A DNA stretch of 30,595 nucleotides. Source: a virus. The stretch lies in IMG/VR virus record IMGVR_UViG_3300032087_004114, positions 1 through 30,595 of that record, one strand, 5' to 3'. The notes under the pieces are model-generated. The model was given only the letters and a program-made list of their open reading frames with translations. It was not told the DNA's origin and ran no database searches. Of this stretch, positions 7,259-30,595 are shown one piece after another; position 1 is the first letter of the stretch, and each line of letters opens with the position of its first letter. A program made the translations under genes and the position numbers.

Positions 7259-7545
7259 GGGGTACTCTAAAAACTCCTATACATAGGTTAAGCATTTTAC
7301 AACAATATGTAATAATATGCTTAATAGGTATATGTAAAGTTTTCAGATAGGGGTACTACTTTTGCAAAAAACTTACCTACCCTTTTTAAAAAGGTATGTA
7401 CTAAAAAGGGGTACTACTTTTACAAAAAACTTACCTACCCTTTTTTGTGGTAGTTGTGATCTAGTCGATTGGTTGACTTACTGCTAATAAACCTTAAATT
7501 TATACATTCTTCTTTTCTTATGAACTTAATTTTTTTTTGATATAA
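7259..7545. other. 287-nt AT-rich gap after terL
   Basis: No gene fits here: the longest ATG frame near the end (7519) is 6 codons. It holds the 39-nt tandem repeats and a TTGACT at 7473-7478 that could be a -35 element. No well-spaced -10 follows (TATACA at 7501 is 22 nt away). The last 40 bases before the ATG at 7546 are almost pure A/T with no SD. It most likely holds the promoter of the virion-protein genes. Confidence 0.5.
7349..7445. repeat. Tandem direct repeat, two 39-nt copies 58 nt apart
   Basis: Copies at 7349-7387 and 7407-7445 differ at one base. Each begins AGGGGTACTACTTTT and ends ACTTACCTACCCTTTTT. A shorter GGGGTACT copy lies at 7259-7266, just after the terL stop. Copy 1 runs into a perfect 14-bp palindrome (7381-7394, CCTTTTTAAAAAGG). 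Possible roles are tandem phage promoters, a binding array for a phage protein, a packaging site near terL, or a terminator. Confidence 0.8.
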
Positions 7546-10175: not shown

Positions 10176-13100
10176 GTGGCACTTAACAGATCAAATTTAG
10201 CGACTGCTGAAACACCAATTAATAATGAATTAGGTTCTATATATTCATATCCTCAATGGAAACAAATTAACAGTGACGAGGATTTAACGACAGAGCAGGA
10301 TCTACCTCAATACTTAGATTATTACAGAACAGAACTCTTTAAAAAAGGAGAGTTAACTAGAGAGAAAGAAGCTGATATTCAGAACTACTATGTAAATTGG
10401 GCTTCAAATGGGGAAGAAGTTTCAGATGCTGAGTTTGCGGCATTGGCAGACAAATCAACCGCCTTCCAGTCAGGAAACTTAAATGATGAGCGCATTGTAA
10501 ACAAAGTTTTTCCTAACGTAGATTTTGCTGCTATTGATGAAGCTAAACAAAATGAGTATCTGAATAGGGCAAAAAGATCTTTGATGGCAAGTGGGCAACT
10601 TCCCTTTGCTACTATTTTAGAAGGCGGTAGAGGGACTGTAGAAGTAGGAGATTTTGAATCTTTAGGGACTACTCCTGAGAAAAAAAAGTTAGCTAGTGAA
10701 AGAGCACTAAGTGCGGTAACGCTAGGTGCTGTTGACCCTAGAGATCTTTGGCAAGTTTCTGAAGGCTTAGAATCTACAAGAGTTCCTAACAAAACAAATT
10801 TTGAAGCAGACTTAGATGCAGAAGATTTAGGTCTATTACGTGAAATGATTGGGGATAAAGATTCCCCTTATGCTAAAATTATTAATGATGCAATTGTTAA
10901 ATCAATTGATCTTGAGACTTATAGGACAGAAGGAAATTGGCTACAACAAATTTTTGCGGATAGACCCGAAGAGATAAATCAAATCTTAGCAGATGAGTTG
11001 CCTGGCGAAATAGAAGAAATTACTCCAGCAATATTAGATGAGTTTGCAAGAAGAAAAGGTTGGGGAGATGCCCAAGGAGCAGGTCTTTCTGTTGATAATT
11101 CTTATAGGTTTTCTAGTGAAAGAATATCTAACTTAATTAAAGAACTATCTATTGTCCACACGAACAATCAGGGGGCTTTTAAATATGATGAAGACAAACC
11201 TGAAAACAATTTAAGAATAACTCCAATGGGAGTGCCTATTGCACACCCAACTGTAATGGAGAACCCAAAAGCTTTTAATGAACTATTAAAAGATAAAAGG
11301 CTGACCTACAATCAAATAAGAGCCCTTAGGGAGTCTAGAAGAAACTATATGTATTCTAGATCTTACCACATCGATGATGTACTTAGCAGTGAGCATTTAG
11401 AATCAGCGGTTGGAGACAAGTGGGCTAGAGCAAAAGCTGAGAACCCGCAGAAATGGAAAGATGATAGAGTTGCCTTTGTTGATGAGTTTCTTTCTAATGA
11501 GAAAAACTATGATGCTTCAAAGAACTGGTGGGGCGGTGTCCGTGCATCTGTACCTGAAGCAATTATAGGAATTGGTGCTTCTATTGGAGCCTTACTAGGC
11601 AACGACGCTTCTGCTGATTACTTAAAAGAATCTCAAAAGAAACAGTCACAAAGGAGAGAACTTGATAGTCTCTTTGGTGGAGAGTTTGGTATTGGTTATG
11701 ATTTAGCAACAATACTACCTTCTGTTGGAGCAGACTTAGCATCTACTTATTTCTTAGCAGGTCCATTAACTAAAGGAGCTAAAGCTTTAGGGGTTGGTAA
11801 AACATTAGACAAAGGTGTTGCTAAAGATGTTGCTCTTAAAAAGATTATTTCAGATTCTGCACTAGACTCTAAGAAAACTCCATTAGCTATAGGTCGTTTT
11901 AATGAGCAAACAGCACAGAAGTTTGGTATTACTTCTTCTTTGTTTTTAACTTCTGCTAACAGATCAGCAGGAGCTACCTACGCTTCTATCTATAACTCTT
12001 TGCCAGAAGATATGAGTCATGAAGAAAAACATGACAAAGCTTTAGGAGCTGCTTTTGCAAGAGGTACTTTGACTGGTGTTATAACTTCTGGATTTTCTGC
12101 TTTAGGGGCAGGTGGTTTAGAAAACATTGTAGCTAGAGGAGCATCCTTTAGGCAGTTTAAAAATGCTATAAACAAAGTTCCTAATGTTGCTTTCCAAGCA
12201 AACGATAGAACAACTAAACAATTATTAAGAAACGTCATTGCCAAGCAAGCTGCTGAGTTATACAAGAAGGAAGCAAACTCTAGCTTAATTAAAAAAGCAT
12301 TAGGAAGTGCTGCTGCGGAAGGTGCTGAAGAAGGTCTTGATGAGTTCATAGGATCTTTTGTAGACAGTGCTGTATTGAATGAGTTTGTTCCTATGAAGGA
12401 GCGTATCAATCAAGGTCTTTATGCAGGTGGGTTAGGAAGTATTCTAGGGGGTACTATGACTGTTGGGTCAGAAACTTTCTTTGGTCCAGACAGGTTGATA
12501 AAATCAACTAATGTAAAAAGTGAAGAGAACAAAAAAGTTCTTGCTGTAGATAAGGCGATAGATCAAGCATCACAAGCTTTAGATGAAGCAGGTTTAGTTA
12601 TTAGTTCAGAGCAACTAAAAGAATATTTAAAGACTACTGACACGGATGCTCAAGCTACTCCTCCTGCCGTTGATGAGACTGTTGACGAGTTTGGTGATGC
12701 TGTTGATCAATTTGTCGATGATACCAAAGAGGGTTCCGATGTACCTATTGAGGAATCAAGTAAATCCATATTCACTAATTTTGGCAAAAACTTTACTAAA
12801 GAAGACGTAACTGATTATATAAATGGATGGGCTCCCACTAAGATTAAAGAAGACATATTTATACAATATGTTGATGGGAAACTTCCTGACAACAACCCAA
12901 TGAGGGTCGGAATCAATGCTGGTACAACTGATAACCCAAACATTGTTTTACAAGTAGACACAGAAAAAGTAACCACTGCTCTCAAAGACTTAAAAACTCA
13001 TAAACAGCGTAAAGCAGCTTTAGATGCAATGCTTGCACATGAGTTTGTTCATCTTAGTGAGAGCTCTATGTTAAAACAAATGTGGAGGAAAAGGTCTTCT

Positions 13101-16100
13101 CAGGAGGAAGATCTTAACTTTATTGAATTCTCTAAAAGAAAACTTTCTGAAATATATGATTCTTTGGTTGCTGACGAAGAGTCTAAAAAGCTTATAGTAG
13201 AATCTGTTGCTGCATACAAAGGTTTAGATGAAACCGAAGTATCTTTACCAGGCAAAGCTCTAACACAAGAGGAAATAGCTAGTGGTAAATCTTTCACAAT
13301 GGAGAAAGATGAAATTGTTTCAGAGTTTACTAGACAATTTATTGGGAGTAAAAACAAACTTGAAGACATTGTAGAAAACAAAGATCTACTAACTCATTTC
13401 CAATCTCTTGTTTCACACGTAAGTAGTTTCTTAGATCCTGATACTAGTGTTAAAGACAGATACTCTTCTTTAAATGAGAATGTTTCTAATTATCTAAATG
13501 ATATAGAAGCAGCTTATATAGGAGTATTAGAAAAGTCTTTGGGAGCAAGGTTTAAAGAATTTGATCCAAAAAAAGTTCCAAACATAAAGCAAGAAGCTAT
13601 TGAAGAATTTGAAGAAGAGATCGTTGAAGAGACAGTAGATCCTGAAGACACTCTTTGGTTAGAGGCTAATAAAGTTGCTAATAGGAAACTTTCTAAAAGA
13701 GGAGTAAGAGAAGAAACAGAAGCTAAAGCACAACAGGCTAAAATAGACAAGGTAGAAGCCTATCTTCTTTCTGACCCTAAAATGCAGGAGAGCATTCCTG
13801 GGTTCAATCGTGATATACTTAATCTGATTAAGGCTAAATATGAATCTGTTTTAGATTCTAAAATAGCAAAATCAGATTCTAAGACTTTTACATTTCCAGA
13901 AATATCTGACCGTAATGGAGAGAACTATGTGAATGGCAATACTGTAAAGACTATAAAAGAATTAATAATTGATTCAAAAAGACCTGATTTAAATGGGGTT
14001 GGTCAAAACAGTGACTCAACAGATGTCTTCTTAACTAAAGTTTTATTAGAGCTAGGTACTAATGTTACTACAGAAACACAATCTGCTGAAACAATTATAG
14101 AAAATAACCCTCCTTCTAAAATATTTAGAGTTGAGTCTAAGCGAGTTGTTAGACCTTTAAATAACAAACAAGCTGATAAAACTTCTCAGTTTACTGAAGA
14201 AGCTAACGAACTCCTTGAGGAGGCAGACATCCATGTAAAAAACCTAAGACGCAATTATCGTAAAGGTAATTACGGCACATATGGTGCAACAGAACTTGCT
14301 TACGAAGAGATTACTACAGTTGACGATAAATATTTAGAGTTAGCTCAAGATCCTAAGAAGAACGAACAAGCTCTTCAAAACCTAGTGGACGAAGTTGCTC
14401 AACAAGAAGGGTATACCTTTGGTCCTGTATATCACGGAACTAAGAAAAAATTTACGACCTTTGAAGCAAGGAAAAAAGATGGGTTAATGTTCTTTTCTTT
14501 GGATGAATCTTTTGCAAAAAGCTACGCAAGAAATAAACGTCCTTCTATTGAAGATGAAAAAAGAATGGACAAAGCATACGAAAAGTCTGTTCAGTTAAAG
14601 GAAAAATTATTACGAGAAAATCCTGACATAGACTTAGAAACCCTTAAAGAAGCACAGAATGATCTTGAAAGATCATTGCTTGATGGGATGACATGGTCAG
14701 AGGCCAAACGTGACTTAGGAACAGTAATCATTAAAGGGTACTTAAAAGCAGACAAAATTTTTGACCCTACTAAAAACTGGCAAGAGTTTGAAGCTGAGTT
14801 AAAAGAAAGTTGGTCGAAGGGTAACGTTTATGTCAACGGTAAAAGAGATACTATTCCAGAGTTTCAACTAGAACTTATCAAAAAAGCTCATTATACCGCT
14901 TGGGAGAAGCCTGAAATTATATCAGCCGTTTTCAAAAAATATGATGCCATATTACTTAGTGAGGGCAATAAAGGGGCTTCTCCAAATAATATCGCTATTA
15001 AAAATATATCAGCAATAAAATCCGCAGATCCAGTAACGTATGATATTAATGGTGATGTAATTCCTTTATCACAAAGGTTTGATATTTCTAAAAGATCTAT
15101 TCTTTTTTCTGAGGAAATTAATATTGGTCTTACAGAAGAAGGGGAAAGAGATATAAAAGCATCTCCTGAGGAGATACGAGATTTTATACGATCAGGCAAA
15201 GTAAAAAAAGGTTGGTTTAGTGGAGGTGCTGCCGATGACATCACTCAAGGTAAAACTGCTGAAGAAGTAGCTGACTATATTATATCTACAACTAACAATA
15301 GGGCACATGCCTATTTACTTAACAGGATAAAAGGATACCTCGAAGGGTTTGTCGTTAAAGCTCCTGTTCAAGGAGATAAATACTTAACATCAGCTCATCC
15401 TAGCAGAGCCAAAGGGTACGCTGTCCAAGATCTTCTAAGCTCTCCTGAAGCAGTGGATATCTTTAAAAGAAACGGAGGCTATTCTTCTTGGACTCCTAGA
15501 AATATTTATATTAATGAGCGAGGACTAAGCTCAGAGATTATTACTCATGAGCTAGTACATGCTGCTACTGAAGCCAGGCTTATGGCAGGTTTGTATGATG
15601 CGGATAAAGATTCCGACTTATACAAGAATGTTAAAGAGCTTGTAGGTCTTGTAAAAGGGACAGTAGAGAAAATCCCTCCAAAGTTTAAGCCTCTTATAGA
15701 TAAAGGAGCTAAGTTGGGAGACTTTGATTATTTTAGTTACACTTTAAATGGTCGGATCGTAAATGAGGGGAGGCCCTCTGATAAAACTATAAGTGAGTTT
15801 GTTGCTTATGGGCTATCTAACGTAGAGTTTCAAAATTTCTTAAAGAGTGTACAAATAAAAAATGAGCCTGATGGACTGACTAAATTTGTTTCTTTTATAC
15901 GTAAAGTATTAGGTATACCGAAAAGTCAAAACAATGCTTTATCAGAACTTATAAGACTGACTGATAACGTACTTAATACTCCTAAAGATGCCGCTACTAT
16001 GAGAGCGGAAAATGAGCAAGTAGCTTCTTGGTTCGCAGGACCCCAACCAGACCCTTATGACGTTTATGAGTTAGCGTTCCCTGCTACTCCTCAAAGAGGA

Positions 16101-19100
16101 GCAGGAACATTTCCAAAAGAACATATTATTCAAAAAAGATTAGAACAAGGAGCTAAACTATTAGGATCTTCAGGTGTCCCAGAAAACATTGAAGAGATAG
16201 CTTCAGATTGGCCTAAAGTAATGTTATCTCACACTAACATTACTCTTGGAAGAAAGAGCAGAATAGAAGGTAATGCTGTTTATGACCCTGAGTATCCAGC
16301 GGGTGTGATGCCATACTCATTAAAGTTTGCTTTACCTAAAAATAAAGAGGTAAAATATAATGCTTTTAATGTTCGTTTGAAAAATGTTGGGATTCAACTA
16401 GATAAATACAAAACTTTTATCGATGGGGATAAGTTTGAAGTTCCAGAAGAAATGTCTTTAGAGTCTGTTCTTAATTCTATCAATATACAGCTAGGTAGAA
16501 AACAAGAAAAAGTAATACCTATGAATGATTTTCTTCTATCGAATCCTTCGTTAAAGGGTATGGGTAAAGTTCCTAAAGGAACTATTGTTTATGCTCAAGG
16601 AGCTAAAGAAGTTCTAGGAGGCCCTACAGGAGATCTTGTTTCTTATAATGAAGACATAGATTTGAACCAAGAAATTTCTTCAGGAGAATGGTCAGCAATA
16701 GCTTACAACCCAGCTCAAGGGAATTACTTTTACAAAGTTTCAGGAGATGAAAAGAATCCTGTTTTTGAAGTTGATCAAGAATTTGTTGGAGCTGAAGAGA
16801 TATTAATGGTTAGTGATTTAGGAAAGCAATCAGGAGAGCGAGGAGCTAATCATGCTCTTTTAGTTAAGAATGCAAAGTTCAAAAAACTTACGGCTGCACA
16901 AGTAAGTGAAGAATCTTTTTCCAAAAAACTAGAAGCTAATTTAGCTAATAAAGAAGCGAAGATACTTATTAAAGCAAAGTTTACAAAACCTCAAAAGGCT
17001 CGTGCAAATGATCTTGTTTACAGATCATTTGAAGAAACAACTGAAGTATTTGACTCGCCTGACTTAGACCCTATTTCAGTTGAAGAAGGCTTCATTAAAA
17101 CTAATGAAGTAGCATTAGTTAATGCACTAGCTGATTATAGGAAAACAAGAGGGGAAGACATTCCTTTAGATGGTTACCTAGAATCTGAATTTGCAATCAA
17201 GTCTATTGAGGATGGGTTTTTAATGGACTACGCTGTTGAATCCTTCGCTGATTTAGGAATATCAAATAAATACTTATCTTTTATTTCTTCTGAAAACGTT
17301 CCTTTGTTTGGGCCGGATTCTTTGTTTGCAGAAGACGCAATTAAAGATGAAGAAGTTGTTAAGAGTATTGTTTCTAAAACTATCAAAAAGCTTACTGCTG
17401 AAGCAATTAGCGGTAAGAACTATAGTGATTCTTTAGCTATCATCGGAGCATTTCCAAAGTTAAAAGAGATAGCAATGAAATCTTTGGATACCACCATTGA
17501 AACCTTAACAGCGAACCTTGATCCAGACTTAACTTCAGATGTGGATAAAGAGATTGCTTTAAAATTAAAAAGATTAGGTACAGCAAGAACTCATCTACGA
17601 AGGAACTTATCTTCACAAACAACTCCTCAAAAAGTTATTGTATATAACGGAGGAGCTACTGCTGAAGCAGGGCTGGAACAAATAAGAAATGTAATAACTA
17701 AAGCTGATGACCCGCAAGCTTTAACAGACATTGAAAAAGAATTTAGAACATTAATTGAAGTACCTATAGGTCAGCTAGGTTCTTACACTAGCCCTATTGA
17801 AGGTAAATCTAATTGGATCAAAACTCTTTGGTCTTGGTTCACTGGCTTAAAAGATCCTAGATGGAAAAGGGAAATGGAGCGGAGAGAAAGCTTCATGAAT
17901 GGTATCCGTACAGAAGCGGAATCATACATAGGGCAAATAGAAAGACTTGTTAAAGAAGGTTGGGGAGGATTCACTACAGAAATAAATACTTTATTAGAAC
18001 AAGCTACTGGAGAAAGAAACAACCTAACAATAAGTGAAGAGATTGATGCAGCACTTATCACTGAGAGAGATGCTGCTAAACAAGAGGCATTGAATTTAGA
18101 AGACCCTAAAGAGGCGTTCAAAGTTATTGCCCAGGCAGATGAGGACTATGAACTATTGGTTCAAAAAGAATTGAACAAAGTCCGTCAAGAGACTCGTAGA
18201 AGAGTAAACGCTGCTTTAGATAAGATAAGTGAGAAGTCTCCTGAATTGGCAGAGACAGTTAGAGGATTAAGATATAAGATAACTTCTTCCTCTAGGTATG
18301 TTTCAGAGAAGCTATCTGAAGTAGATCGTGAAGATTACAAGGACATAGAAGCACGGTTCAGTGCTCAAGAAGGTTTTTACTTAACAAGAACTTATAGAAT
18401 TTTTGAAGATCCTTCTTGGAGTAAGTTCCTTTATGATAAAGATGATCCTAGAGCAAAAGCAATACGACTTAATGCAGCTAGGGAAATGTTTAAAAAACAG
18501 CAAGAAGATGTTTTATCTGAGCAAATAGTATCTTTAGACAAAGAAGCCTATAAGAATAATGATGTTGAGTGGTTAGCTAAATCAGAAGCTGCTAAGAGAG
18601 AAGAAGTAGGAGCTATAAAAAGTTTAGATGAAGTCCTAAAAGAAAAGGGCATGACTGAAGAAGACTTTTTAGAAACTGTCTTTGAAACTAATTTTGCTCG
18701 TTATCAAGAGGATCAAGGTCCAGATATTCTTAAAAGGAAAAAAGATGTTCCTAAAGCAATAAGAGTTGCTTTGGGTGAGATCCCTGACGGAACTTGGAAC
18801 ATAATTAAAACCTATGAAAAAGTAAGTTATCTCGCTAACCGAATAGCTATTGATGCAAACTTAGAGAGATTAGGTAATCCTAAAAATGAAGAAGGAGAAG
18901 AAATAGCTAGACCAGATCAAAAGTGGTTGCTTACAGAAGAAGAAACAATCGAATTAGGTTTAGATAATTATGAGCCTATTGATCCTGCTTTGAAATCAAA
19001 TGAAGGTGATAGATATAGTCCTTTACTAGGTAAAGGTTACTTTGCTTCGCCTGAAATGATTGAGTCTATTAGAGAGACACGGGCGTTCACTCCTGAACCA

Positions 19101-20981
19101 TCAACATTAGGTGAAAAGATTAGAGCTAAGATTGATAAAGGTGTCCGTAAAACAATAGGTCTTTCATTAGGTGTTAAGACATTAACTAGTTCTACATACT
19201 ATGTGAGGAACGTGGTTGGTAACACAACTTACTTTGCTTTATCTTTAGGTCTGCCACCAGGCACAGGGATGAGCAAAATTCTAAGCTTTAGAGAAGGTAA
19301 GGTTAAAGGAGAGTTAGCACGGGCTGTTTTAAATCCTAAAGAAGTTGATGAGTACGTTAACAAACTTGTAAAAGATGGTGTAATTGAAAGAGAGTTCTCA
19401 GTAGCTGTTTATGAAGACATGCTTCAAGGAACAATCAATGAAGAAAGTTTAGAAAAAGAGACTTTTGAAATCTTAGATAAGATCCAAAAAGAAAATGGAT
19501 TAGAAACTATAGAAGTAGATAGTGACAAATCTTTACTAGAGACACTTAAACACGCAGCAAAGAAAGGTTTAAAAGTATCGAAGAAGCTTGAAAATAGATT
19601 GCAAAAATTATCTTTGGCATCGGACTCATTCTACAAAATAGCCGTGTACGAATATGAATTAAGCACTCTTAAAAAAGCTAGAGAATACGACAAAGAGAGT
19701 GGAGTTGATACTGGATTCAGAGGTAAGTCTGACAGAGAGCTTGAGTTGATGGCGATTGATAAGCTAAAGAAGACTGCTCAATACTTTTCTCAGAACATGC
19801 CTGGCACAGAAGGCTTTAGTAGATCCTTTGCAGGGGCTTTAGTTGCTCCTTACTACAGATTTAGAGTAGAGGTTGCTAGAATAATGGTGAATAATTCTAG
19901 GCTAGCTTACAATGAAATAAAATCAGAGAACCCAATCATTAAGAAAAGAGGATACCAAAGGGCAGCTGGAGCTGCTACAGTTGGGGCAATTTCAACTACA
20001 GCTACGTTTGCTGCTGAAGCTGCATTACTACTATTCGCATATGGTTTAGGTCACAGACCTGCTGACTTAACTGACGAGGAAAAAGAAGCACTTCAACTTA
20101 GTGTCCCGCCATACTTGAAGACACATACTTTCTTATACACTATGAAAGATGGGAAGTACCATTCATGGGACTTAACTTACCTTAATCCTTATTCAGCCTA
20201 TCTAGACTCTGTTCCAACATTCCAACGTGCTCTTAAACGAGGCGAGAGTATTTCTTCAGCACTGATGGAGAGTTCGCATGTATTGTTTACCGCTCCTTTC
20301 CTTGAAGGTCAGATAGCAACTAAAGCATTCTACAATGCATTGAATAATAAGAACTCAAAGGATGAAGCTATTTACTTTGAGCATGATGACGTTGGTACTA
20401 AAGCTGCTAAAAGTATAGCTAGTGTTCTGAAAGAAGCCTATGGAGCTCCAACCTACATGAGGTTGAGCGAAAATATTAAAGGCATGATGAGTGATGACCC
20501 CACATATACTATGGGTAAATTACTGAAGGATGAACTATCACCTCTGAAATCTTATGAGATTAAACCGCAGACTGCCTTGTACAACTTTACCAGACCTATG
20601 GAGCAGGATAAGCTAGCTATGCGTAAAGCACTTAATAAACTAGCTACCTCAAAGCCAGTGTCTGATGACGAACTTAGGAGAGTTATAAAAGGACTTAAAA
20701 ATAGTTATGGTAGATTAGCTAAGAGATACAAAGATCATTCTCCTAGCTTGTTAAAAATTGGTGCTACTGTAAATGACATTAAAAAGAATGGAGAGGAACT
20801 CTTTACTAAAGAAGGGTATAAAAACCTTGTGCAATTGAATGCTGTTCCCGCTTTATTCTTTAGCGACAGGATGAAAGAAGTTCTAAGGAGAAGTTCTAAT
20901 CCTGAAGTACGAGCAAGACTAGCTAAAGCTGCGGGTATTCTTTTAGAAGAAACTAACAATGGGTTTATTCCTCTTGATTAA
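10176..20981 (+). CDS. Giant polyvalent virion protein (ART-like, two metallopeptidase motifs, membrane segments)
   Basis: One open frame of 3601 codons (about 400 kDa) starts at GTG 10176 with no SD. Residues 1-450 are charged and helical. Hydrophobic stretches fall near 460-475, 512-540, 630-650 and 750-775, with AEGAEEGLDEFIGSFVDS near 712-730. HEFVH at 955-959 is a first zinc-peptidase motif. VYHGTKKKFTTF (Y1419, H1420) and MFFSLDESFAKSYA open an ADP-ribosyltransferase-like domain. It closes at IKSADPVTYDINGDVIPLSQ (about 1610-1635), a sequence widely seen in phage polyvalent proteins. HELVH at 1791-1795 with E1874 (SEFVAYGLS) is a second peptidase. GFYLTRTYRIFEDP lies near 2731, YYVRNVVGNTTYFALSLG near 3005 and NMPGTEGFSRSFAG near 3205. 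A strong membrane segment follows near 3264-3295. Family knowledge (polyvalent proteins of phages and conjugative elements) suggests it enters the host with the DNA and modifies or cleaves host targets. Confidence 0.85.
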   Translation: MALNRSNLATAETPINNELGSIYSYPQWKQINSDEDLTTEQDLPQYLDYYRTELFKKGELTREKEADIQNYYVNWASNGEEVSDAEFAALADKSTAFQSGNLNDERIVNKVFPNVDFAAIDEAKQNEYLNRAKRSLMASGQLPFATILEGGRGTVEVGDFESLGTTPEKKKLASERALSAVTLGAVDPRDLWQVSEGLESTRVPNKTNFEADLDAEDLGLLREMIGDKDSPYAKIINDAIVKSIDLETYRTEGNWLQQIFADRPEEINQILADELPGEIEEITPAILDEFARRKGWGDAQGAGLSVDNSYRFSSERISNLIKELSIVHTNNQGAFKYDEDKPENNLRITPMGVPIAHPTVMENPKAFNELLKDKRLTYNQIRALRESRRNYMYSRSYHIDDVLSSEHLESAVGDKWARAKAENPQKWKDDRVAFVDEFLSNEKNYDASKNWWGGVRASVPEAIIGIGASIGALLGNDASADYLKESQKKQSQRRELDSLFGGEFGIGYDLATILPSVGADLASTYFLAGPLTKGAKALGVGKTLDKGVAKDVALKKIISDSALDSKKTPLAIGRFNEQTAQKFGITSSLFLTSANRSAGATYASIYNSLPEDMSHEEKHDKALGAAFARGTLTGVITSGFSALGAGGLENIVARGASFRQFKNAINKVPNVAFQANDRTTKQLLRNVIAKQAAELYKKEANSSLIKKALGSAAAEGAEEGLDEFIGSFVDSAVLNEFVPMKERINQGLYAGGLGSILGGTMTVGSETFFGPDRLIKSTNVKSEENKKVLAVDKAIDQASQALDEAGLVISSEQLKEYLKTTDTDAQATPPAVDETVDEFGDAVDQFVDDTKEGSDVPIEESSKSIFTNFGKNFTKEDVTDYINGWAPTKIKEDIFIQYVDGKLPDNNPMRVGINAGTTDNPNIVLQVDTEKVTTALKDLKTHKQRKAALDAMLAHEFVHLSESSMLKQMWRKRSSQEEDLNFIEFSKRKLSEIYDSLVADEESKKLIVESVAAYKGLDETEVSLPGKALTQEEIASGKSFTMEKDEIVSEFTRQFIGSKNKLEDIVENKDLLTHFQSLVSHVSSFLDPDTSVKDRYSSLNENVSNYLNDIEAAYIGVLEKSLGARFKEFDPKKVPNIKQEAIEEFEEEIVEETVDPEDTLWLEANKVANRKLSKRGVREETEAKAQQAKIDKVEAYLLSDPKMQESIPGFNRDILNLIKAKYESVLDSKIAKSDSKTFTFPEISDRNGENYVNGNTVKTIKELIIDSKRPDLNGVGQNSDSTDVFLTKVLLELGTNVTTETQSAETIIENNPPSKIFRVESKRVVRPLNNKQADKTSQFTEEANELLEEADIHVKNLRRNYRKGNYGTYGATELAYEEITTVDDKYLELAQDPKKNEQALQNLVDEVAQQEGYTFGPVYHGTKKKFTTFEARKKDGLMFFSLDESFAKSYARNKRPSIEDEKRMDKAYEKSVQLKEKLLRENPDIDLETLKEAQNDLERSLLDGMTWSEAKRDLGTVIIKGYLKADKIFDPTKNWQEFEAELKESWSKGNVYVNGKRDTIPEFQLELIKKAHYTAWEKPEIISAVFKKYDAILLSEGNKGASPNNIAIKNISAIKSADPVTYDINGDVIPLSQRFDISKRSILFSEEINIGLTEEGERDIKASPEEIRDFIRSGKVKKGWFSGGAADDITQGKTAEEVADYIISTTNNRAHAYLLNRIKGYLEGFVVKAPVQGDKYLTSAHPSRAKGYAVQDLLSSPEAVDIFKRNGGYSSWTPRNIYINERGLSSEIITHELVHAATEARLMAGLYDADKDSDLYKNVKELVGLVKGTVEKIPPKFKPLIDKGAKLGDFDYFSYTLNGRIVNEGRPSDKTISEFVAYGLSNVEFQNFLKSVQIKNEPDGLTKFVSFIRKVLGIPKSQNNALSELIRLTDNVLNTPKDAATMRAENEQVASWFAGPQPDPYDVYELAFPATPQRGAGTFPKEHIIQKRLEQGAKLLGSSGVPENIEEIASDWPKVMLSHTNITLGRKSRIEGNAVYDPEYPAGVMPYSLKFALPKNKEVKYNAFNVRLKNVGIQLDKYKTFIDGDKFEVPEEMSLESVLNSINIQLGRKQEKVIPMNDFLLSNPSLKGMGKVPKGTIVYAQGAKEVLGGPTGDLVSYNEDIDLNQEISSGEWSAIAYNPAQGNYFYKVSGDEKNPVFEVDQEFVGAEEILMVSDLGKQSGERGANHALLVKNAKFKKLTAAQVSEESFSKKLEANLANKEAKILIKAKFTKPQKARANDLVYRSFEETTEVFDSPDLDPISVEEGFIKTNEVALVNALADYRKTRGEDIPLDGYLESEFAIKSIEDGFLMDYAVESFADLGISNKYLSFISSENVPLFGPDSLFAEDAIKDEEVVKSIVSKTIKKLTAEAISGKNYSDSLAIIGAFPKLKEIAMKSLDTTIETLTANLDPDLTSDVDKEIALKLKRLGTARTHLRRNLSSQTTPQKVIVYNGGATAEAGLEQIRNVITKADDPQALTDIEKEFRTLIEVPIGQLGSYTSPIEGKSNWIKTLWSWFTGLKDPRWKREMERRESFMNGIRTEAESYIGQIERLVKEGWGGFTTEINTLLEQATGERNNLTISEEIDAALITERDAAKQEALNLEDPKEAFKVIAQADEDYELLVQKELNKVRQETRRRVNAALDKISEKSPELAETVRGLRYKITSSSRYVSEKLSEVDREDYKDIEARFSAQEGFYLTRTYRIFEDPSWSKFLYDKDDPRAKAIRLNAAREMFKKQQEDVLSEQIVSLDKEAYKNNDVEWLAKSEAAKREEVGAIKSLDEVLKEKGMTEEDFLETVFETNFARYQEDQGPDILKRKKDVPKAIRVALGEIPDGTWNIIKTYEKVSYLANRIAIDANLERLGNPKNEEGEEIARPDQKWLLTEEETIELGLDNYEPIDPALKSNEGDRYSPLLGKGYFASPEMIESIRETRAFTPEPSTLGEKIRAKIDKGVRKTIGLSLGVKTLTSSTYYVRNVVGNTTYFALSLGLPPGTGMSKILSFREGKVKGELARAVLNPKEVDEYVNKLVKDGVIEREFSVAVYEDMLQGTINEESLEKETFEILDKIQKENGLETIEVDSDKSLLETLKHAAKKGLKVSKKLENRLQKLSLASDSFYKIAVYEYELSTLKKAREYDKESGVDTGFRGKSDRELELMAIDKLKKTAQYFSQNMPGTEGFSRSFAGALVAPYYRFRVEVARIMVNNSRLAYNEIKSENPIIKKRGYQRAAGAATVGAISTTATFAAEAALLLFAYGLGHRPADLTDEEKEALQLSVPPYLKTHTFLYTMKDGKYHSWDLTYLNPYSAYLDSVPTFQRALKRGESISSALMESSHVLFTAPFLEGQIATKAFYNALNNKNSKDEAIYFEHDDVGTKAAKSIASVLKEAYGAPTYMRLSENIKGMMSDDPTYTMGKLLKDELSPLKSYEIKPQTALYNFTRPMEQDKLAMRKALNKLATSKPVSDDELRRVIKGLKNSYGRLAKRYKDHSPSLLKIGATVNDIKKNGEELFTKEGYKNLVQLNAVPALFFSDRMKEVLRRSSNPEVRARLAKAAGILLEETNNGFIPLD

Positions 20982-21410: not shown

Positions 21411-21590
21411 TTATTTCTTACGTTTATAACTACATCTTATTGTATGATTATAGAACTTGGCTATTTGTCGAGCTACTTTTTTAGTAGGGATATTTCTCTC
21501 AGTTAGTTTTGGAAACTTAACAAAGTACAGTGTAAAGTTCCCATCAGATTCTTCATACAATACAGCTGGAAATGTTTTTGGTCTAGGCAT
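21411..21590 (-). CDS. Small basic protein (59 aa) overlapping the methyltransferase end
   Basis: ATG 21590 is preceded by AGGAGG at the ideal distance (AGGAGGTTCAATG), one of the best ribosome sites in the window. Together with an 8-nt overlap with the methyltransferase stop, this makes the gene convincing although it is short. The protein begins MPRPKTFPAVLYEESDGNF, continues LYFVKFPKLTERNIPTKKVA, and ends strongly basic (TIRCSYKRKK). The N-terminal part has the beta-strand look of HicB-like or small RNase-H-fold domains (AVLYEESDGNFTLYFVKFP). The match is too short for a claim. A nucleic-acid-binding role is plausible from the charge. Confidence 0.65.
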   Translation of the reverse strand: MPRPKTFPAVLYEESDGNFTLYFVKFPKLTERNIPTKKVARQIAKFYNHTIRCSYKRKK

Positions 21591-22812
21591 TGAACCTCCT
21601 TACTAAAGTTACAAATGCTTTTTCTGCAACCTGTGGTACAACACCGTTGCCTAACAATCTTAGTCGATCCACTCTGTTGGCAATTGGGTCCACCCCACAG
21701 GTAGCCCCATCAGTTGCTCCACCCAATTCGCATTGAGCTTCTTCCCTGTGTTGTGCTGTACTTGCTCCCCCAAGTTGCTCTTGCCCCTGTCTGTGTGAGC
21801 TGCTCTGCTGTCTACCTCCTTTGGGGTTCCCCATAATAACTCTCGGCTCTTCCCACTCTTGTTGGGCTTCGCCTGGTCGTGAAGGCCAGCTTTGGATAAT
21901 CCTTTCCTGTCCTTGTGAAGCTTCTCCCTCTGCACTTTCTGCCCATGTACTTCGGGATGGTTGCTCAGTCCTAGCTGTCCATAGTTCGGATTGTTCCCAA
22001 TCTTCCCTCCCTCTGCTACTGTTGGTGTCGGCCAATTCTCGTGCGTCTCCACTGCGTCTCTTAGCTTCGCTCCAAACCATTGGGCGCTCTTCTTCCTCTT
22101 GCTTCTGAATCCTTTGTCCGTTAGCTCCGTCTCGATCCTTCCCCCCTCTGCATCCGATGTCCTCGCTGTCGGCCAACTCAACATCTCCTGTGCTTCCACT
22201 GCGTCTGGTAGTAAGTTTCTGAACCGCTTCTTTTGGCTCTCTACATTGTAGTATCCTTTCCAATCCCTCGCTGCTGGAGTAGGCCAGGATGAAGACTCGC
22301 TTTCTCTGATGAGTTGCTCCGACTTCAGACGCTGAGAATATTCCTGCCTCTGCGACGTAACCCACTTCTTCCAACGATCTGAGGACATAGTGGAGAACTG
22401 ATTCTCCATCGGCTGTCTTGCAACTGATGATCCCTTCGACGTTTTCGAGGAACAAGACAGTGGGTCTACACTCTTTGATTCCTTCAAGGATGTAGGGGAA
22501 CAAGTGTCTTGGATCTTCTGTTGCTTTCTTGAGTCCTGCTCCTGAGAAAGGTTGGCAGGGGAATCCACCAGACAGGATGTCAACGCATCCACGAAACTTT
22601 CTGAATGGGAATTCTTTAAGGTCCGTGAACACAGGTGCTGGATGAATTTGGTTCGCTTCCATCTTCGCAACCAAGTTGCAGATAGCGAAGGTTTCGATTT
22701 CAACATGAGCGATTTCTCGCACATTTGGGAGAACTCTTCTGAGTCCACTTCCGATTCCCTCGTAACCTGAACAGAGGGATAGGTGTCTGATATATTCTTT
22801 GGGATTATCCAC
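21583..22812 (-). CDS. C5-cytosine DNA methyltransferase (Dcm-like)
   Basis: The 409-aa protein has the ordered C5-MTase motifs: I HLSLCSGYEGIG (10-21, AdoMet binding), IV GGFPCQPFSG (catalytic C86), VI LENVEG (123-127), VIII QRKRVFIL (169-176) and X LLGNGVVPQVAE (387-395). It methylates cytosine in DNA, most likely to protect phage DNA from host restriction. Between VIII and X, where the target-recognition domain lies, residues 178-375 are low-complexity E/Q/R/S/G with repeats LADS, LADT and IMGN. That is odd for a folded domain and is explained by an overlapping open frame. The only usable start is GTG 22812, since a stop lies four codons upstream in this frame. An ATG two bases upstream opens the other frame. 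The gene looks richer in GC than the block around the giant gene, suggesting transfer. Confidence 0.88.
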   Translation of the reverse strand: MDNPKEYIRHLSLCSGYEGIGSGLRRVLPNVREIAHVEIETFAICNLVAKMEANQIHPAPVFTDLKEFPFRKFRGCVDILSGGFPCQPFSGAGLKKATEDPRHLFPYILEGIKECRPTVLFLENVEGIISCKTADGESVLHYVLRSLEEVGYVAEAGIFSASEVGATHQRKRVFILAYSSSEGLERILQCREPKEAVQKLTTRRSGSTGDVELADSEDIGCRGGKDRDGANGQRIQKQEEEERPMVWSEAKRRSGDARELADTNSSRGREDWEQSELWTARTEQPSRSTWAESAEGEASQGQERIIQSWPSRPGEAQQEWEEPRVIMGNPKGGRQQSSSHRQGQEQLGGASTAQHREEAQCELGGATDGATCGVDPIANRVDRLRLLGNGVVPQVAEKAFVTLVRRFNA

Positions 22813-23726: not shown

Positions 23727-24566
23727 TTAATGGAGGCCAATTGCTATTGGTACGTTCTTAAATGAATCTAACCCACAGGCATGTCCTTGTGGGGTGCATG
23801 TGTCGCATGTGCCTGGGCAGACAAACACTCGCTTGCCTACTGCATTACGCACTGCTTTCTTGTATTCTCTTGTCTTGTATCCTGCTTTCGCAGCAAGCTT
23901 GTCAATCGCTACAGTAAGGAAGTCTCCTCTTGTACAAGGCAACTCCTTCATCTGTCTACGCTTACCTTCACCATAACGACTGTCACTAGACAGGTTGAGC
24001 TTGTAGTTAGGTGGGAATGGCTGACCCAACTCATGCCACCTAAGAAACAAGTCCCAACTCTTGCTATACCCATACGCCTTGATGTCTGGTCGTAGCTCCA
24101 ACATCTTGAACCAAAAGGCTAGCGTCTTTGTGTCATGGATGTCACCATCAACATACAATCGTACTGTGACATCTTTTGGTAGCTTCATCCATTCCTCTTC
24201 AATGATCCCTGTGCAGGGTTCATGGTTCAGGAGCCATAAGTTCTGTGCTTGCCTGAAGAAGGCAGCTGGATACCTCCATGCTTTGAATGAGTAACAAAAC
24301 TTGGCACATGCTCCTGCACCAGGGCAAGAGACTAGCGGAAGCACTGACCATGCTTTGAAGGATAACTTCTTGTTACCATCTGCAAACAGAGAGAACTCTG
24401 GTTTGCCTGTATCTAAAAAGCGTTGGAACTTGTGAGCGTAGTAAGCCCACGTTCCAACCTTTGTGATGTCCCCCAGGACGTTTTCGTCTAGCCATTGTTG
24501 TAATCGCCAGGGTTTCTTTTCAGTCTGCACCATCTGTGCAAACTGCATTAGTTGCTTTCTGTTCAT
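23727..24566 (-). CDS. Gp88-family protein with two cysteine clusters
   Basis: The 279-aa protein carries SCPGAGACAKFCYSFKAWRY, with C81, C87 and C91, which is the hallmark of the mycobacteriophage gene-88-like family (KLS...LPxxxTCPGAxxCxxxCYAxxG). A second cluster CPGTCDTCTPQGHAC near the end has C250, C254, C257 and C264. Seven conserved-type cysteines suggest an Fe-S cluster and/or zinc site. The middle (RLYVDGDIHDTKTLAFWFKM, then IKAYGYSKSW) has the beta-alpha look of TIM-barrel enzymes. The function of the family is not established; an Fe-S enzyme acting on nucleotide or RNA substrates would be an inference. It starts at ATG 24566 and its stop is followed one base later by the next ATG. 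Confidence 0.8.
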   Translation of the reverse strand: MNRKQLMQFAQMVQTEKKPWRLQQWLDENVLGDITKVGTWAYYAHKFQRFLDTGKPEFSLFADGNKKLSFKAWSVLPLVSCPGAGACAKFCYSFKAWRYPAAFFRQAQNLWLLNHEPCTGIIEEEWMKLPKDVTVRLYVDGDIHDTKTLAFWFKMLELRPDIKAYGYSKSWDLFLRWHELGQPFPPNYKLNLSSDSRYGEGKRRQMKELPCTRGDFLTVAIDKLAAKAGYKTREYKKAVRNAVGKRVFVCPGTCDTCTPQGHACGLDSFKNVPIAIGLH

Positions 24567-27296: not shown

Positions 27297-27329
27297 ACAC
27301 AGAACCCTAGACTGCATAGGGTTCTGTGT
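27297..27329 (-). terminator. Strong rho-independent terminator
   Basis: A perfect 13-bp stem (27297-27309 with 27317-27329) has a 7-nt loop, and on the minus strand the stem is followed by TTTTATTATG. It lies 18 nt after the DUF932-like gene's stop. On the plus strand it is followed by AATTTTG, so it could act weakly in both directions. Confidence 0.85.
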
Positions 27330-27347: not shown

Positions 27348-28475
27348 TTATGCAGCCAATACTAACTTGTTCCACTGATCCTCTGTCTGCTCGACAATCC
27401 TACCACCAATGCGGTCAAGCTCTGCTCTCCTGTCAAAGGTTTCTACCCTTTGTGCTGCTGCTGTGAATGCAGCTTGTATACCATAAGCATGACGCTCATG
27501 TGGTTTGAACTCCTCTTTGGCGAGATCAATCTCCTCTTTACTGAGGCTGTAATGTCTACCAAACTTGTCGATGATATCATCAGCATCCCCGTCAAAGGTT
27601 CTCTCGAATGAAAGCTCCAACATGTTACGAATCATTTGGATGTTATCGAGTTGGAACATCCTAAACAAATGTCTTTGTATGTTTCTGATATCCTCATAAT
27701 GTGGTTGACGTTGAGGCTTTAGCCCTGTCCCTATGACAGCCCTGCCCAAGTGCTTCATGTAGAACTCTCCTAGTTCTAAGTCCTGTCTGCCAAAGACCAT
27801 ACCATTGTCACAGTATGCGTCGCAGATAAAGAACTCAATGTACAATCCTGATGCACCGACTTCTGATGTCCTGACTTGAAAGCCTAAGTACATCTTACGC
27901 TCACCTTTCTCATACACAGCCTCTTCACTGATGAACCTAGCATGAGTGATGACACCGTCATTACGTCCACCTAAGAACTTCATCTTGAAGTCCAGCTGTT
28001 CAAGCACACGATCAATAAGTGGGAATAACACATCGTTATCTAACCGCTTGTACTTTGTAGACAGCAGTGCCCTGGCTTCAAAGGTTGGCAATACACTTTC
28101 GATGTCAGTCCTTTGCTTAGTCCTGATCAACATCTTCTTATCAGACCTGTCCAATTGCTCATGAACATTCCTTAAGAGGAGATCAAGCTGACCTGTTGAG
28201 TGTAGCATTCTACCATAACGGACGAGTCCATTGCCACCAATCTCCGTGAGAAGATCAGTCGTGAACCGCTTGTTACTTAGAACAGGTCTACCATTATTAG
28301 GTAGGATTACCATATACGACTTAGCATCGTGATTATAGCCAAAGGATAAGTCACGTAACCTATGCACGTAATCTTCTTTAGCTCCTTTTACATTCACTCT
28401 GTCGAGTGTGTGATAGCCTGTATCAGGCTCTACTACTTGTGTATCATCTGATGATACATTACTTGGTGTTACCAT
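27348..28475 (-). CDS. DUF932-like phage/plasmid protein
   Basis: I choose ATG 28475 (375 aa) because AGAAGGA lies just upstream. The frame can be extended 17 codons to an ATG at 28526 without a ribosome site. Two family-like segments are seen: ARALLSTKYKRLDNDVLFPL (the R-A-x-L-S-x-x-Y-x-x-x-D-N pattern) and FICDAYCDNGMVFGRQ (the C-x-N-G-M pattern). This is the DUF932 / phage-plasmid-like family. Members sit in phage and plasmid accessory regions with YubB-type proteins and single-strand binding genes, and their role is not settled. N- and C-terminal parts are helical and charged. It is the largest gene of the right-hand block, with its own terminator after it. A perfect 8-bp-arm palindrome at 28441-28457 lies in its 5' end. 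Confidence 0.75.
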   Translation of the reverse strand: MVTPSNVSSDDTQVVEPDTGYHTLDRVNVKGAKEDYVHRLRDLSFGYNHDAKSYMVILPNNGRPVLSNKRFTTDLLTEIGGNGLVRYGRMLHSTGQLDLLLRNVHEQLDRSDKKMLIRTKQRTDIESVLPTFEARALLSTKYKRLDNDVLFPLIDRVLEQLDFKMKFLGGRNDGVITHARFISEEAVYEKGERKMYLGFQVRTSEVGASGLYIEFFICDAYCDNGMVFGRQDLELGEFYMKHLGRAVIGTGLKPQRQPHYEDIRNIQRHLFRMFQLDNIQMIRNMLELSFERTFDGDADDIIDKFGRHYSLSKEEIDLAKEEFKPHERHAYGIQAAFTAAAQRVETFDRRAELDRIGGRIVEQTEDQWNKLVLAA

Positions 28476-28573
28476 AGTATTTTTTCCTTCTATTTTAGTT
28501 ATGCTTTCGTCTGGTGAAACATACACCAGGGAAATTGTTATACTTTAATTACTATTATTTGTCTAGTAATTTG

Positions 28574-28948
28574 TTACTGTTTAGTGAAAAGATTAGTCGG
28601 ATCTATAACCTTTCCTGTTACATGGTGATACCTCAAATTAGATACCCTGTGCATGTACTCCGCTACTTCATCTGCTCCTATGTAAGCCACTACTGAATCA
28701 TCTACGGCATTGATTTCCATAAGCTCACCTTCTGGATTGATGATAGCTATCTCTACTTGAAGTGAATAACTCACCTCTTCAGGTAACTTCTTTCCTGTAG
28801 CATAGTGATCCCCATAATTAAATGAACTCCACTGCACGGATACCATGAAGCCATTCTCAAACTTCATATAAAAGCCAGGTTCTTCTAACCTATCGGTTAT
28901 TTCAAAACCTACTTTGCGATTCTTACGCCATTCATTTACTGCAATCAT
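28574..28948 (-). CDS. Hypothetical 124-aa beta-rich protein
   Basis: I choose ATG 28948. The frame extends to 29002, but those 18 codons lie in the terminator hairpin (28977-29027). The leader before 28948 is A-rich like others here. The protein begins MIAVNEWRKNRKVGFEITDR and is rich in beta strands (FYMKFENGFMVSVQWSSFNY, then SYSLQVEIAIINPEGELMEI). It ends with a helix DEVAEYMHRVSNLRYHH. A pattern such as FYMKFENGFMVSVQW...GxxY is common in small phage proteins of unknown role. No active site is visible. It probably starts a transcript that also contains the DUF932-like gene, since no strong terminator lies between them. Confidence 0.6.
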   Translation of the reverse strand: MIAVNEWRKNRKVGFEITDRLEEPGFYMKFENGFMVSVQWSSFNYGDHYATGKKLPEEVSYSLQVEIAIINPEGELMEINAVDDSVVAYIGADEVAEYMHRVSNLRYHHVTGKVIDPTNLFTKQ

Positions 28949-28976
28949 TTTACTTTTTATTTCTTTGTTTAAATGA

Positions 28977-29027
28977 AACAAGGCAACCCGTCCATGATTC
29001 ATAGTTCATGGATCAGGTTGCCTTGTT
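28977..29027 (-). terminator. Long two-part hairpin terminator
   Basis: Outer arms AACAAGGCAACC (28977-28988) and GGTTGCCTTGTT (29016-29027) pair perfectly over 12 bp. Inner arms TCCATGA (28991-28997) and TCATGGA (29006-29012) pair over 7 bp. The T-richness after the stem on the minus strand (TTCATTTAAAC) is moderate. It separates the small genes above 29038 from the 124-aa gene. Confidence 0.7.
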
Positions 29028-29037
29028 ATTGTTTAGG

Positions 29038-29223
29038 TTACCCTTCTAGCTTGGCTATGTGTCTATCCGCTAATCCCTTCAGCCTGTCAATGTAGCCAGG
29101 TCTAGCGAAATCATATTCGCCATTCTCTTCTTTCCTCTTCGCAGCTCTGTAGAGCTTCTTGATATCTGCAACAGTTGTTGCCTTCTTAATCTGGGAACGA
29201 GTCCCTTCATTTGCTTTCTTCAT
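29038..29223 (-). CDS. Small basic protein (61 aa)
   Basis: I take ATG 29223. The frame can be extended to a TTG at 29292, overlapping the membrane-protein gene by 35 nt, so the start is uncertain. The protein begins MKKANEGTRSQIKKATTVAD and continues IKKLYRAAKRKEENGEYDFA, a strongly basic helical region. It ends GYIDRLKGLADRHIAKLEG. The charge fits a DNA- or RNA-binding peptide. No known family is recognised. It is followed closely by the two-part terminator. Confidence 0.5.
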   Translation of the reverse strand: MKKANEGTRSQIKKATTVADIKKLYRAAKRKEENGEYDFARPGYIDRLKGLADRHIAKLEG

Positions 29224-29497: not shown

Positions 29498-29664
29498 GCT
29501 CCTATCAAGTCTAATGCTTTACGCACGGTGTTAATACTTCCTCTGTTCCTGGGACTTTCATCCCCCTGCTTTGCAGATAATATATCTGCTTGGTTGCTTG
29601 GTGTCTTACTGTTGATAAGATCACGGGTCTTCTGTGTAGGCACAGTCCTTTTGTTTTTATACAT
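29494..29664 (-). CDS. Small basic protein (56 aa)
   Basis: The frame can start at TTG 29685, but the ATG at 29664 comes four bases after the stop of the 22-aa frame (TAG-ATTT-ATG) and fits coupling better, so I use it. The protein begins MYKNKRTVPTQKTRDLINSK, then TPSNQADILSAKQGDESPRN, and ends SINTVRKALDLIGA. It is rich in K, R, S and N with one likely C-terminal helix. The middle could be a short helix-turn-helix, but I cannot show it. It overlaps the membrane protein by ATGA. Confidence 0.45.
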   Translation of the reverse strand: MYKNKRTVPTQKTRDLINSKTPSNQADILSAKQGDESPRNRGSINTVRKALDLIGA

Positions 29665-29668
29665 AAAT

Positions 29669-29737
29669 CTATACTGTGAATTCAATCTCTCTTACCTCTT
29701 CGCCTTCATCTAATCTATCTGATATTGTCCTGCTCAT
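29669..29737 (-). CDS. 22-codon micro-ORF with strong ribosome site
   Basis: ATG 29737 is preceded by AAGGAG at about 6 nt, among the best ribosome sites here, and overlaps the stop of the upstream gene (ATGA). The peptide MSRTISDRLDEGEEVREIEF-TV is acidic and helical. It ends 4 nt before the next ATG, so it may act as a coupling or leader peptide or be a small protein. Its length makes it tentative. Confidence 0.4.
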   Translation of the reverse strand: MSRTISDRLDEGEEVREIEFTV

Positions 29738-30009
29738 TTCTTTCTCCTTCCTCTTGCTTTTAGTTTCTTCTTACTTGTGAACCTGCGTCCCTCTTTCATC
29801 TCCGTGCTAGTGATGCTCTTGGGGAATATGTCTAGGTTATTATACTTTTTTTCTTTTCCTGTAACCAAGCCTGAAGTCTTACCATGAATACGGGAGGGCC
29901 TGGCGTGATGATCACCAGCATAGGGGTGGTGGTCAGTGATCGACTTCATATAACACGTAGTCGGTGAATCGTACACATGAGGGTACGATGTAACTTTTAA
30001 CATAGTCAT
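29734..30009 (-). CDS. Hypothetical basic protein, first gene of the leftward block (about 91 aa)
   Basis: The start is chosen at ATG 30009 because the longer frame (30045) begins inside a hairpin (30041-30080). ATG 30003 is also possible. The protein has the N-terminus MTMLKVTSYPHVYDSPTTCY, a histidine-rich stretch (MKSITDHHPYAGDHHARPSR), then a glycine/threonine/lysine-rich middle. It ends in a very basic tail (FTSKKKLKARGRRKK). It looks like a nucleic-acid-binding protein; no family is recognised. It is the first gene after the long non-coding control region and so is probably made early. The frame ends in ATGA with the 22-aa ORF. Confidence 0.5.
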   Translation of the reverse strand: MTMLKVTSYPHVYDSPTTCYMKSITDHHPYAGDHHARPSRIHGKTSGLVTGKEKKYNNLDIFPKSITSTEMKEGRRFTSKKKLKARGRRKK

Positions 30010-30040
30010 TTGCTTTCGTTGTGGTTTACGTCCACATGAC

Positions 30041-30080
30041 TGCACATCTCCATCGTCATGATGATTTCAAGAGATGTGCA
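30041..30080. repeat. 10-bp inverted repeat (hairpin)
   Basis: TGCACATCTC (30041-30050) and GAGATGTGCA (30071-30080) pair perfectly. Flanking CACATG and TATGTG extend the stem imperfectly. It lies just upstream of the chosen start 30009 and contains the rejected start 30045. Confidence 0.7.
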
Positions 30081-30106
30081 GGTTATGTGAAAATAATGTC
30101 CTGCTC

Positions 30107-30124
30107 TGTACTGATTACAGTACA
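30107..30124. repeat. 7-bp hairpin TGTACTG/CAGTACA
   Basis: A perfect 7-bp stem with a 4-nt loop ATTA. The two-fold symmetry would suit an operator for a dimeric repressor. Confidence 0.55.
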
Positions 30125-30253
30125 CTCTCATAAGGTCGTACATTTAGCGATGTGAACGTAGGACAACGTCATGATTCATTAGCTCATAAATCATAGATCA
30201 TAGTTCACACTTCAGTGCTCATATGTTCCCTTTTCCAAGTTTACTGATTAGGG

Positions 30254-30280
30254 CATTGCATTAAACGTTCCAATGCAATG
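30254..30280. repeat. 9-bp inverted repeat
   Basis: CATTGCATT (30254-30262) pairs with AATGCAATG (30272-30280) around a 9-nt loop. No U-tract follows, so it is more likely a protein-binding or structural site than a terminator. Confidence 0.6.
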
Positions 30281-30411
30281 GTGTAATCTTTTACCATATA
30301 TTTCGTTCGCTCTTAAGGCGTAGGTCTTGCGCTACAAATCTTGCTAGTGATTTGATATATCATTAATGAATTAAGTATTGCAACAATAGCTATTGAATAG
30401 AATTGTCAGAG

Positions 30412-30438
30412 ATTACATGACAATAAAAGTCATGTAAT
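30412..30438. repeat. 10-bp inverted repeat
   Basis: ATTACATGAC (30412-30421) and GTCATGTAAT (30429-30438) pair perfectly around AATAAAA. An imperfect palindrome, TGAGATAGCTACCTCA, follows at 30438-30453. Confidence 0.65.
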
Positions 30439-30526
30439 GAGATAGCTACCTCATTAGGCAAGTGATCTAAGATTGTCTCGAATCGATTTAATAAAGGCTA
30501 ATAATCGGAGTAAGTGAGACGATAAA

Positions 30527-30595
30527 AGGCTTTAGCCGTTTTACTTTGCTTACTCGTTTTACAATACACGTTGCAAAATTTGAGGCTTTAGCCGT
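30527..30595. repeat. 13-nt direct repeat, 56 nt apart, ending at the window edge
   Basis: AGGCTTTAGCCGT occurs at 30527-30539 and 30583-30595. Each copy contains a small GGCT/AGCC hairpin. A shortened version (AAGGCTA) lies near 30494. GAGTAAG and CTTACTC flank the first copy as an inverted pair. It could be an iteron, a terminal repeat or an assembly edge. Confidence 0.5.

Follow-up and report, generated by a model that had tools for sequence, protein, structure and literature searches.

To our knowledge, leader RNAs of defined fold are scarce among phages. Some of the GOLLD and other large ornate RNAs are borne by phages; the region described here resembles these in that its product would also be a long folded RNA. 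It differs in that it has no Rfam match and in that the putative RNA directly precedes a protein gene. According to PMC9378689, putL and putR of phage HK022 are folded RNAs that suppress termination; made close to the beginning of an early phage operon, they act in cis on transcription, as we propose for this region, and by that analogy put RNA would be its nearest functional analogue. As described there, put RNA measures ~70 nt, has two stem-loops and belongs to a lambdoid phage, in contrast to at least six hairpins over ~430 nt here. Since size and shape differ, we do not claim membership and compare the two by description. PMC2864571 gives manA, wcaG and PhotoRC-II as candidate structured RNAs obtained by comparative genomics, present in some phages, with Rfam accessions. 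While this region is likewise a phage-carried candidate found comparatively, it matches no Rfam 15 family: there were 0 matches on the window at gathering score, and E-value searches with loci L041-L043 and window 29600-30595 returned only miRNA matches, below gathering scores. In the open PMC literature, we found no description of the element.

The window, by which we mean the whole stretch of DNA that was analysed, is one complete IMG/VR virus record, 30,595 bases long and classified as linear, and represents part of the genome of an uncultivated phage. Its genes include one that matches the large terminase family phrog_2 (5489-7258) and one that matches a DNA methyltransferase family (21583-22812). 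A leftward gene block fills the right end, from ~30045 down to 21078. At the nucleotide level, window 28000-30595 matches nothing in the phage collection; near and distant nucleotide searches of phages and a distant one of plasmids gave no match, nor did tblastn in the phage collection with the terminase and portal proteins, the two tested from this phage group. From comparison of related sequences, we consider it rather likely that the minus strand of the region just upstream of the leftward block, ~30003-30487, codes for a structured 5' leader RNA, which would act in cis on the leftward operon. If the RNA is transcribed and cis-acting, it would offer a testable case in which genes of an uncultivated phage lineage are controlled at the RNA level, and the alignment of its core provides a model for seeking the element in other collections.

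A hairpin-rich region upstream of the leftward operon

A sequence-only reading of this DNA had listed four perfect inverted repeats and a 13-nt repeat at the right end of the window. All four inverted repeats are present: 30040-30081 (11-bp arms and a 20-nt loop; given earlier as 30041-30080), 30107-30124 (7-bp arms, 4-nt loop), 30254-30280 (9-bp arms, 9-nt loop) and 30412-30438 (10-bp arms, 7-nt loop). A further palindrome, at 30435-30456, is imperfect in the window and perfect in the relative G001, and the 13-nt direct repeat, AGGCTTTAGCCGT, was recovered at 30527-30539 and 30583-30595. The density of hairpins is not random. With arms of at least 9 and loops of 3-25, three of the seven perfect repeats in the window lie in 30039-30595, a number reached by 0 of 300 shuffles; shuffles of this segment contain 0.09 such repeats on average. 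The features of the putative minus-strand RNA, which would be read from high to low coordinates, and of its surroundings are as follows.

30488-30595, minus strand: partial open frame, truncated by the end of the window; contains both copies of the 13-nt repeat
30003-30487, minus strand: non-coding region, the putative leader, between that frame and the first gene of the leftward operon; no long frame
30435-30456, minus strand: H7, near-palindromic hairpin; window and G001 only
30412-30438, minus strand: H6, hairpin with 10-bp arms; aligned in the window and G001 only
30254-30280, minus strand: H5, hairpin; loop GAACG(T/C) common to four of five genomes, stem rewritten
30094-30244, minus strand: conserved core of the putative RNA (alignment A5)
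30132-30232, minus strand: P0, alternative closing helix formed by 30223-30232 and 30132-30143; both sides have changed in two pairs
30195-30229, minus strand: helix Px (30221-30229 with 30195-30203); RNAalifold consensus
30171-30194, minus strand: helix P2, loop GAGCTA; three variable pairs, all retained as G-U on the minus strand
30096-30166, minus strand: PL, long-range helix (30161-30166 with 30096-30101) enclosing P3; RNAalifold consensus
30107-30124, minus strand: P3, hairpin of 7 bp with a 4-nt loop; five of five genomes
30040-30081, minus strand: P4, hairpin directly upstream of the first gene
29734-30045, minus strand: first downstream gene, a small variable protein of 103 aa from GTG 30045
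27297-27329, minus strand: strong intrinsic-terminator-like hairpin within the leftward gene block

From 5' to 3' on the minus strand the order is thus H7, H6, H5, the core (30244-30094), P4 and the first gene. Read by eye, ATG 30003 fits the shorter relatives of that gene better as a start than GTG 30045. The claim that the region is gene-free stands for ~30003-30487 and fails from 30488 to the window end, where a minus-strand frame stays open for 35 codons; this frame may be the end of a small upstream gene. Across the leader of the five genomes that carry it (see below), every frame contains 5-17 stops, and the longest stop-free stretches are 49, 51, 57, 47 and 57 codons. We do not regard a 45-aa ORF spanning the leader (30006-30143) as a gene because, on reading by eye, neither G002 nor G006 preserves it. 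Upstream of the leader in G001 (L002 4690-5025), repeated GCTTTTAGGGG-type blocks are seen by eye inside a 111-aa open frame.

The remark that none of the repeats ends in a U-tract is borne out, as no T-run follows any of the perfect repeats; on the plus strand, four T come after an imperfect extension of H5 (30246-30288). A terminator scan of both strands of 29990-30595, confined to loops of 3-8, returned no site. The loops of P4 and H5 exceed that limit, and T-runs there were judged by reading the sequence; in window 29990-30595, we found no G+C-rich hairpin followed by a U-tract. Promoter-like sites showed no excess over shuffles in the window, G002 or G006, and we therefore propose no promoter.

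Conservation in related phages

Nine related records were searched at the DNA level, and four matched the region: G001, a contig of 60,507 bases that is the one contig closely matching the window, with 90% identity, and G002, G005 and G006, with 71-74% identity over parts of 30093-30246, up to 150 nt of the core. The RNA core would start with GUAAA(C/A)UUGG on the minus strand. In this search, G003 and G004 have the portal gene and no match to the region, and neither portal nor region was found in G007-G009, which are contigs of 10.9-19.9 kb. The window and G001 are identical at 439 of 468 positions over 30003-30470, at 202 of 206 over 30040-30245 and at 221 of 269 in the adjoining coding stretch 29734-30002, and they diverge past ~30470. 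The core is not uniquely conserved, since several other genes reach 97-98.6% against G001.

The wider family comprises 103 confirmed portal relatives, of which the best 80, together with the window, made up 81 sources. Model R1 gave five clear matches in these sources (E <= 1e-19, next best 0.3), and model R2 picked out the same five genomes among 86 sources (next best 0.06), both models being built from the very five sequences matched. The next-best matches mostly fall on this element's own opposite strand. Among the best 80 of the 103 portal relatives and the window, the element was thus found only in the window and its four known relatives, and the comparative base is five sequences in three clades. 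A search for the portal in bacterial and archaeal genomes gave 238 pattern stretches, 0 of them confirmed. Six loci encode relatives of the 27348-28526 protein, and the element is absent from the two that were searched, L259 and L260. A degenerate core pattern hit seven contig stretches, the new ones among which (L248-L250) match neither R1 nor R2 and were rejected, as was a weak L070 match on reading by eye.

Pairing on the minus strand

Because MAFFT misaligned P3 and P4, pairs were counted by script. The arms of P3 differ among the window/G001 pair, G002, G005 and G006, and its 7-bp stem and 4-nt loop are constant; for the five genomes, 77, 85, 160, 164 and 3 of 5000 segment shuffles attain that stem length. 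P4 also keeps its place with changed arms. Its Watson-Crick stem is 11 bp in the window, G001, G002 and G005 (reached by 0, 0, 1 and 4 of 500 shuffles; with G-U allowed, 3, 2, 26 and 22 of 500 reach the stem). For G006, Watson-Crick pairs alone make a stem of 5 bp (455 of 500 shuffles), and pairing that includes G-U makes one of 17 bp (0 of 500). For H5, Watson-Crick pairing stands out only in the window and G001 (0 and 0 of 500 shuffles) and is ordinary in G002, G005 and G006 (69, 238 and 192 of 500); once G-U is allowed, 0, 2, 2, 19 and 11 of 500 shuffles match it in the five genomes. Between the window and G001, one pair of H6 changes from T-A to G-C and another from C-G to U-G, and H7 on the minus strand has one G-U pair in the window and is perfect in G001.

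The two strands were compared with P3, P4, H5 and the core in each of the five genomes. The longest stem was longer on the minus than on the plus strand in 14 of these 20 cases, equal in 6 and shorter in 0. In the hand-defined helices, 11 G-U pairs stood against 1 A-C on the minus strand over 23 helix-by-genome rows, where composition alone predicts odds of 0.92-1.23; this count leaves out P1, Px, PL and repeated rows, and it comes from helices picked by eye in related genomes that are not independent. Pairs flanking these helices include some A-C besides G-U. Tolerance of G-U on one strand is expected of a conserved structured RNA, and it was found on the minus strand. Folding of the alignments gave z of -3.75, -2.89 and -4.04 on the minus versus -2.72, -2.49 and -2.73 on the plus strand, and when the 3' partner was slid, paired cells fell from 95.5% to at most 46.4%. 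Pairing that is better on one strand points to RNA.

Single sequences separate the strands hardly at all, and G005 is weak: for the window, G001, G002, G005 and G006, z is -2.84, -3.08, -3.79, -1.66 and -4.04 on the minus and -2.71, -3.18, -3.20, -1.65 and -3.25 on the plus strand. Five same-strand windows of the gene block, used for comparison, gave z of -0.38 to -2.32. The shorter stretch 30038-30244 has z of -2.31 (minus) and -2.19 (plus), and that of G002 -2.34 on the sense and -2.46 on the opposite strand. Compensatory changes are seen in P3, P4 and P0; five sequences from three clades make for weak formal covariation controls. In P0 (alignment A6), two pairs are changed on both sides, which is equalled by 195 of 500 shuffles; in Px, P2 and PL (alignment A5), 0 pairs are, and the shuffle control (500 of 500) is uninformative.

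RNAalifold gives Px, P2 and PL as the consensus helices. Px and P0 are mutually exclusive because P0/P1 use the same 5' strand as Px. In the register of G002, five of nine pairs of P1 form in the window and G001 and four of nine are broken. The competition between Px and P0/P1 hints at a two-state switch; it may be such a switch, or one set of helices may be wrong. It is a tentative idea, and one we think unlikely, that the element represents a new class of large phage RNA, in which exclusive folds (Px/PL versus P0/P1) would switch a phage operon or a protein-free RNA would act on the host transcription machinery.

A proposed cis-acting leader and alternatives

Taken together, the comparisons indicate that the hairpin-rich region probably acts as an RNA control element. 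As a leader, the RNA would be made as the 5' portion of the operon's mRNA, with H5-H7 lying 5' of a 150-nt core (Px or P0/P1, P2, PL and P3) and P4 before the first gene. Its length would be between ~200 nt (core and P4) and 430 nt (H7 to P4). We give this as a range of 200-430 nt since the RNA may start after weak terminator-like sites that lie towards the 5' end of the leader in G006 (L043 1694-1707, five pairs) and G002 (L042 1735-1752, seven pairs). Two routes of action in cis can be envisaged: RNA-based read-through of internal terminators, for example that at 27297-27329, or control of translation or stability via P4.

It is possible, though we hold it to be unlikely, that the region instead yields a separate non-coding RNA that acts in trans, for instance on the host RNA polymerase or as a regulator, and is either expressed from a promoter of its own or excised from the operon transcript. 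A conserved and folded core would suit such an RNA, as would the terminator-like sites on the 5' side in G002 and G006, which divide the region from the preceding gene; each of these genomes has an upstream gene of 116-117 aa in the same orientation, with a terminator-like hairpin behind it (L042 1439-1464; L043 1405-1430). However, between P4 and the first gene there is no terminator-like site in the window, G002 or G006, as expected of a leader rather than a stand-alone RNA, and only 13 nt (G002) and 46 nt (G006) separate the end of P4 from the start of that gene.

The sequence-only reading had seen in this region an origin or multiple operators. What stands of this is that a non-coding element, conserved and rich in hairpins, precedes an operon; multiple operators are not supported, and an origin has no positive support. 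In a replication origin, the hairpins would serve DNA unwinding or priming, and the hairpin-dense non-coding region does lie near a divergent junction. GC skew had been proposed as a check, and in the 60.5-kb relative G001 it has a local minimum near the region. However, the cumulative skew of G001 turns several times, at ~20.5, 32.5, 44.5 and 54.5 kb, the first three of which lie at changes of gene direction, and an origin therefore lacks support; nor is an advantage of G-U pairing on one strand expected of DNA structure. We judge an origin to be improbable.

Protein-binding operators or a multi-site promoter region, in which the dyads would be DNA sites, fit the position of the inverted repeats upstream of an operon. 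This is nevertheless improbable, because the arms of P3, P4 and H5 are rewritten between clades with pairing retained, on top of the better pairing on one strand, and because the hairpins, which share no common dyad or arm sequence, do not form an operator array.

It is very improbable that some hairpins are functionless by-products of 7-nt repeats found family-wide (GAWYCMT) and self-complementary in register. In favour of this are the 7-nt register of P1/P2 in G002, seen by eye, and the abundance of tandem heptamers (68 in 81 sequences, against 1, 2 and 0 adjacent doublets in three first-order Markov controls). Against it, it would cover P1/P2 only, P3, P4, H5 and H6 not being heptamer-built, and the degenerate motif shows no clear enrichment in the window (22 matches, equalled by 6 of 100 shuffles).

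The tandem heptamers with the consensus GAWYCMT occur at loci L050-L129 and, in the window, at 24228 and 29014 on the minus strand. Pairs spaced by 0, 7 and 14 bases number 68, 56 and 23, and other gaps 0-9. Frames of at least 90 aa make up 79% of the bases, and 38 of the 75 arrays fall outside them. As a marker of the host, the heptamers were rejected, given that arrays of five copies occur in bacteria of many phyla among the matches listed. Degenerate heptamers can be made out by eye on the minus strand at 30169-30207, the P1/P2 part of the leader. At 28957-29055 (minus strand), a hairpin formed by AACAAGGCAACC and GGTTGCCTTGTT, whose loop is filled with heptamers, lies at the start of the gene 28574-29002; it is closely kept in G001, G002 and G005.

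Elsewhere in the window, a single open frame of 3601 aa occupies 10176-20981 on the plus strand and has a weak Pfam match to ART-PolyVal (22.1 bits, versus a cut-off of 31.2). A block of ~85 nt at 7269-7353 is 78% identical to G001 20216-20301 and can also be aligned in G002 (L042 ~555-660) and G006 (L043 ~535-640). By eye, it contains a TTAAGCAT/ATGCTTAA-like dyad, and it is a candidate for a shared promoter or regulator site.
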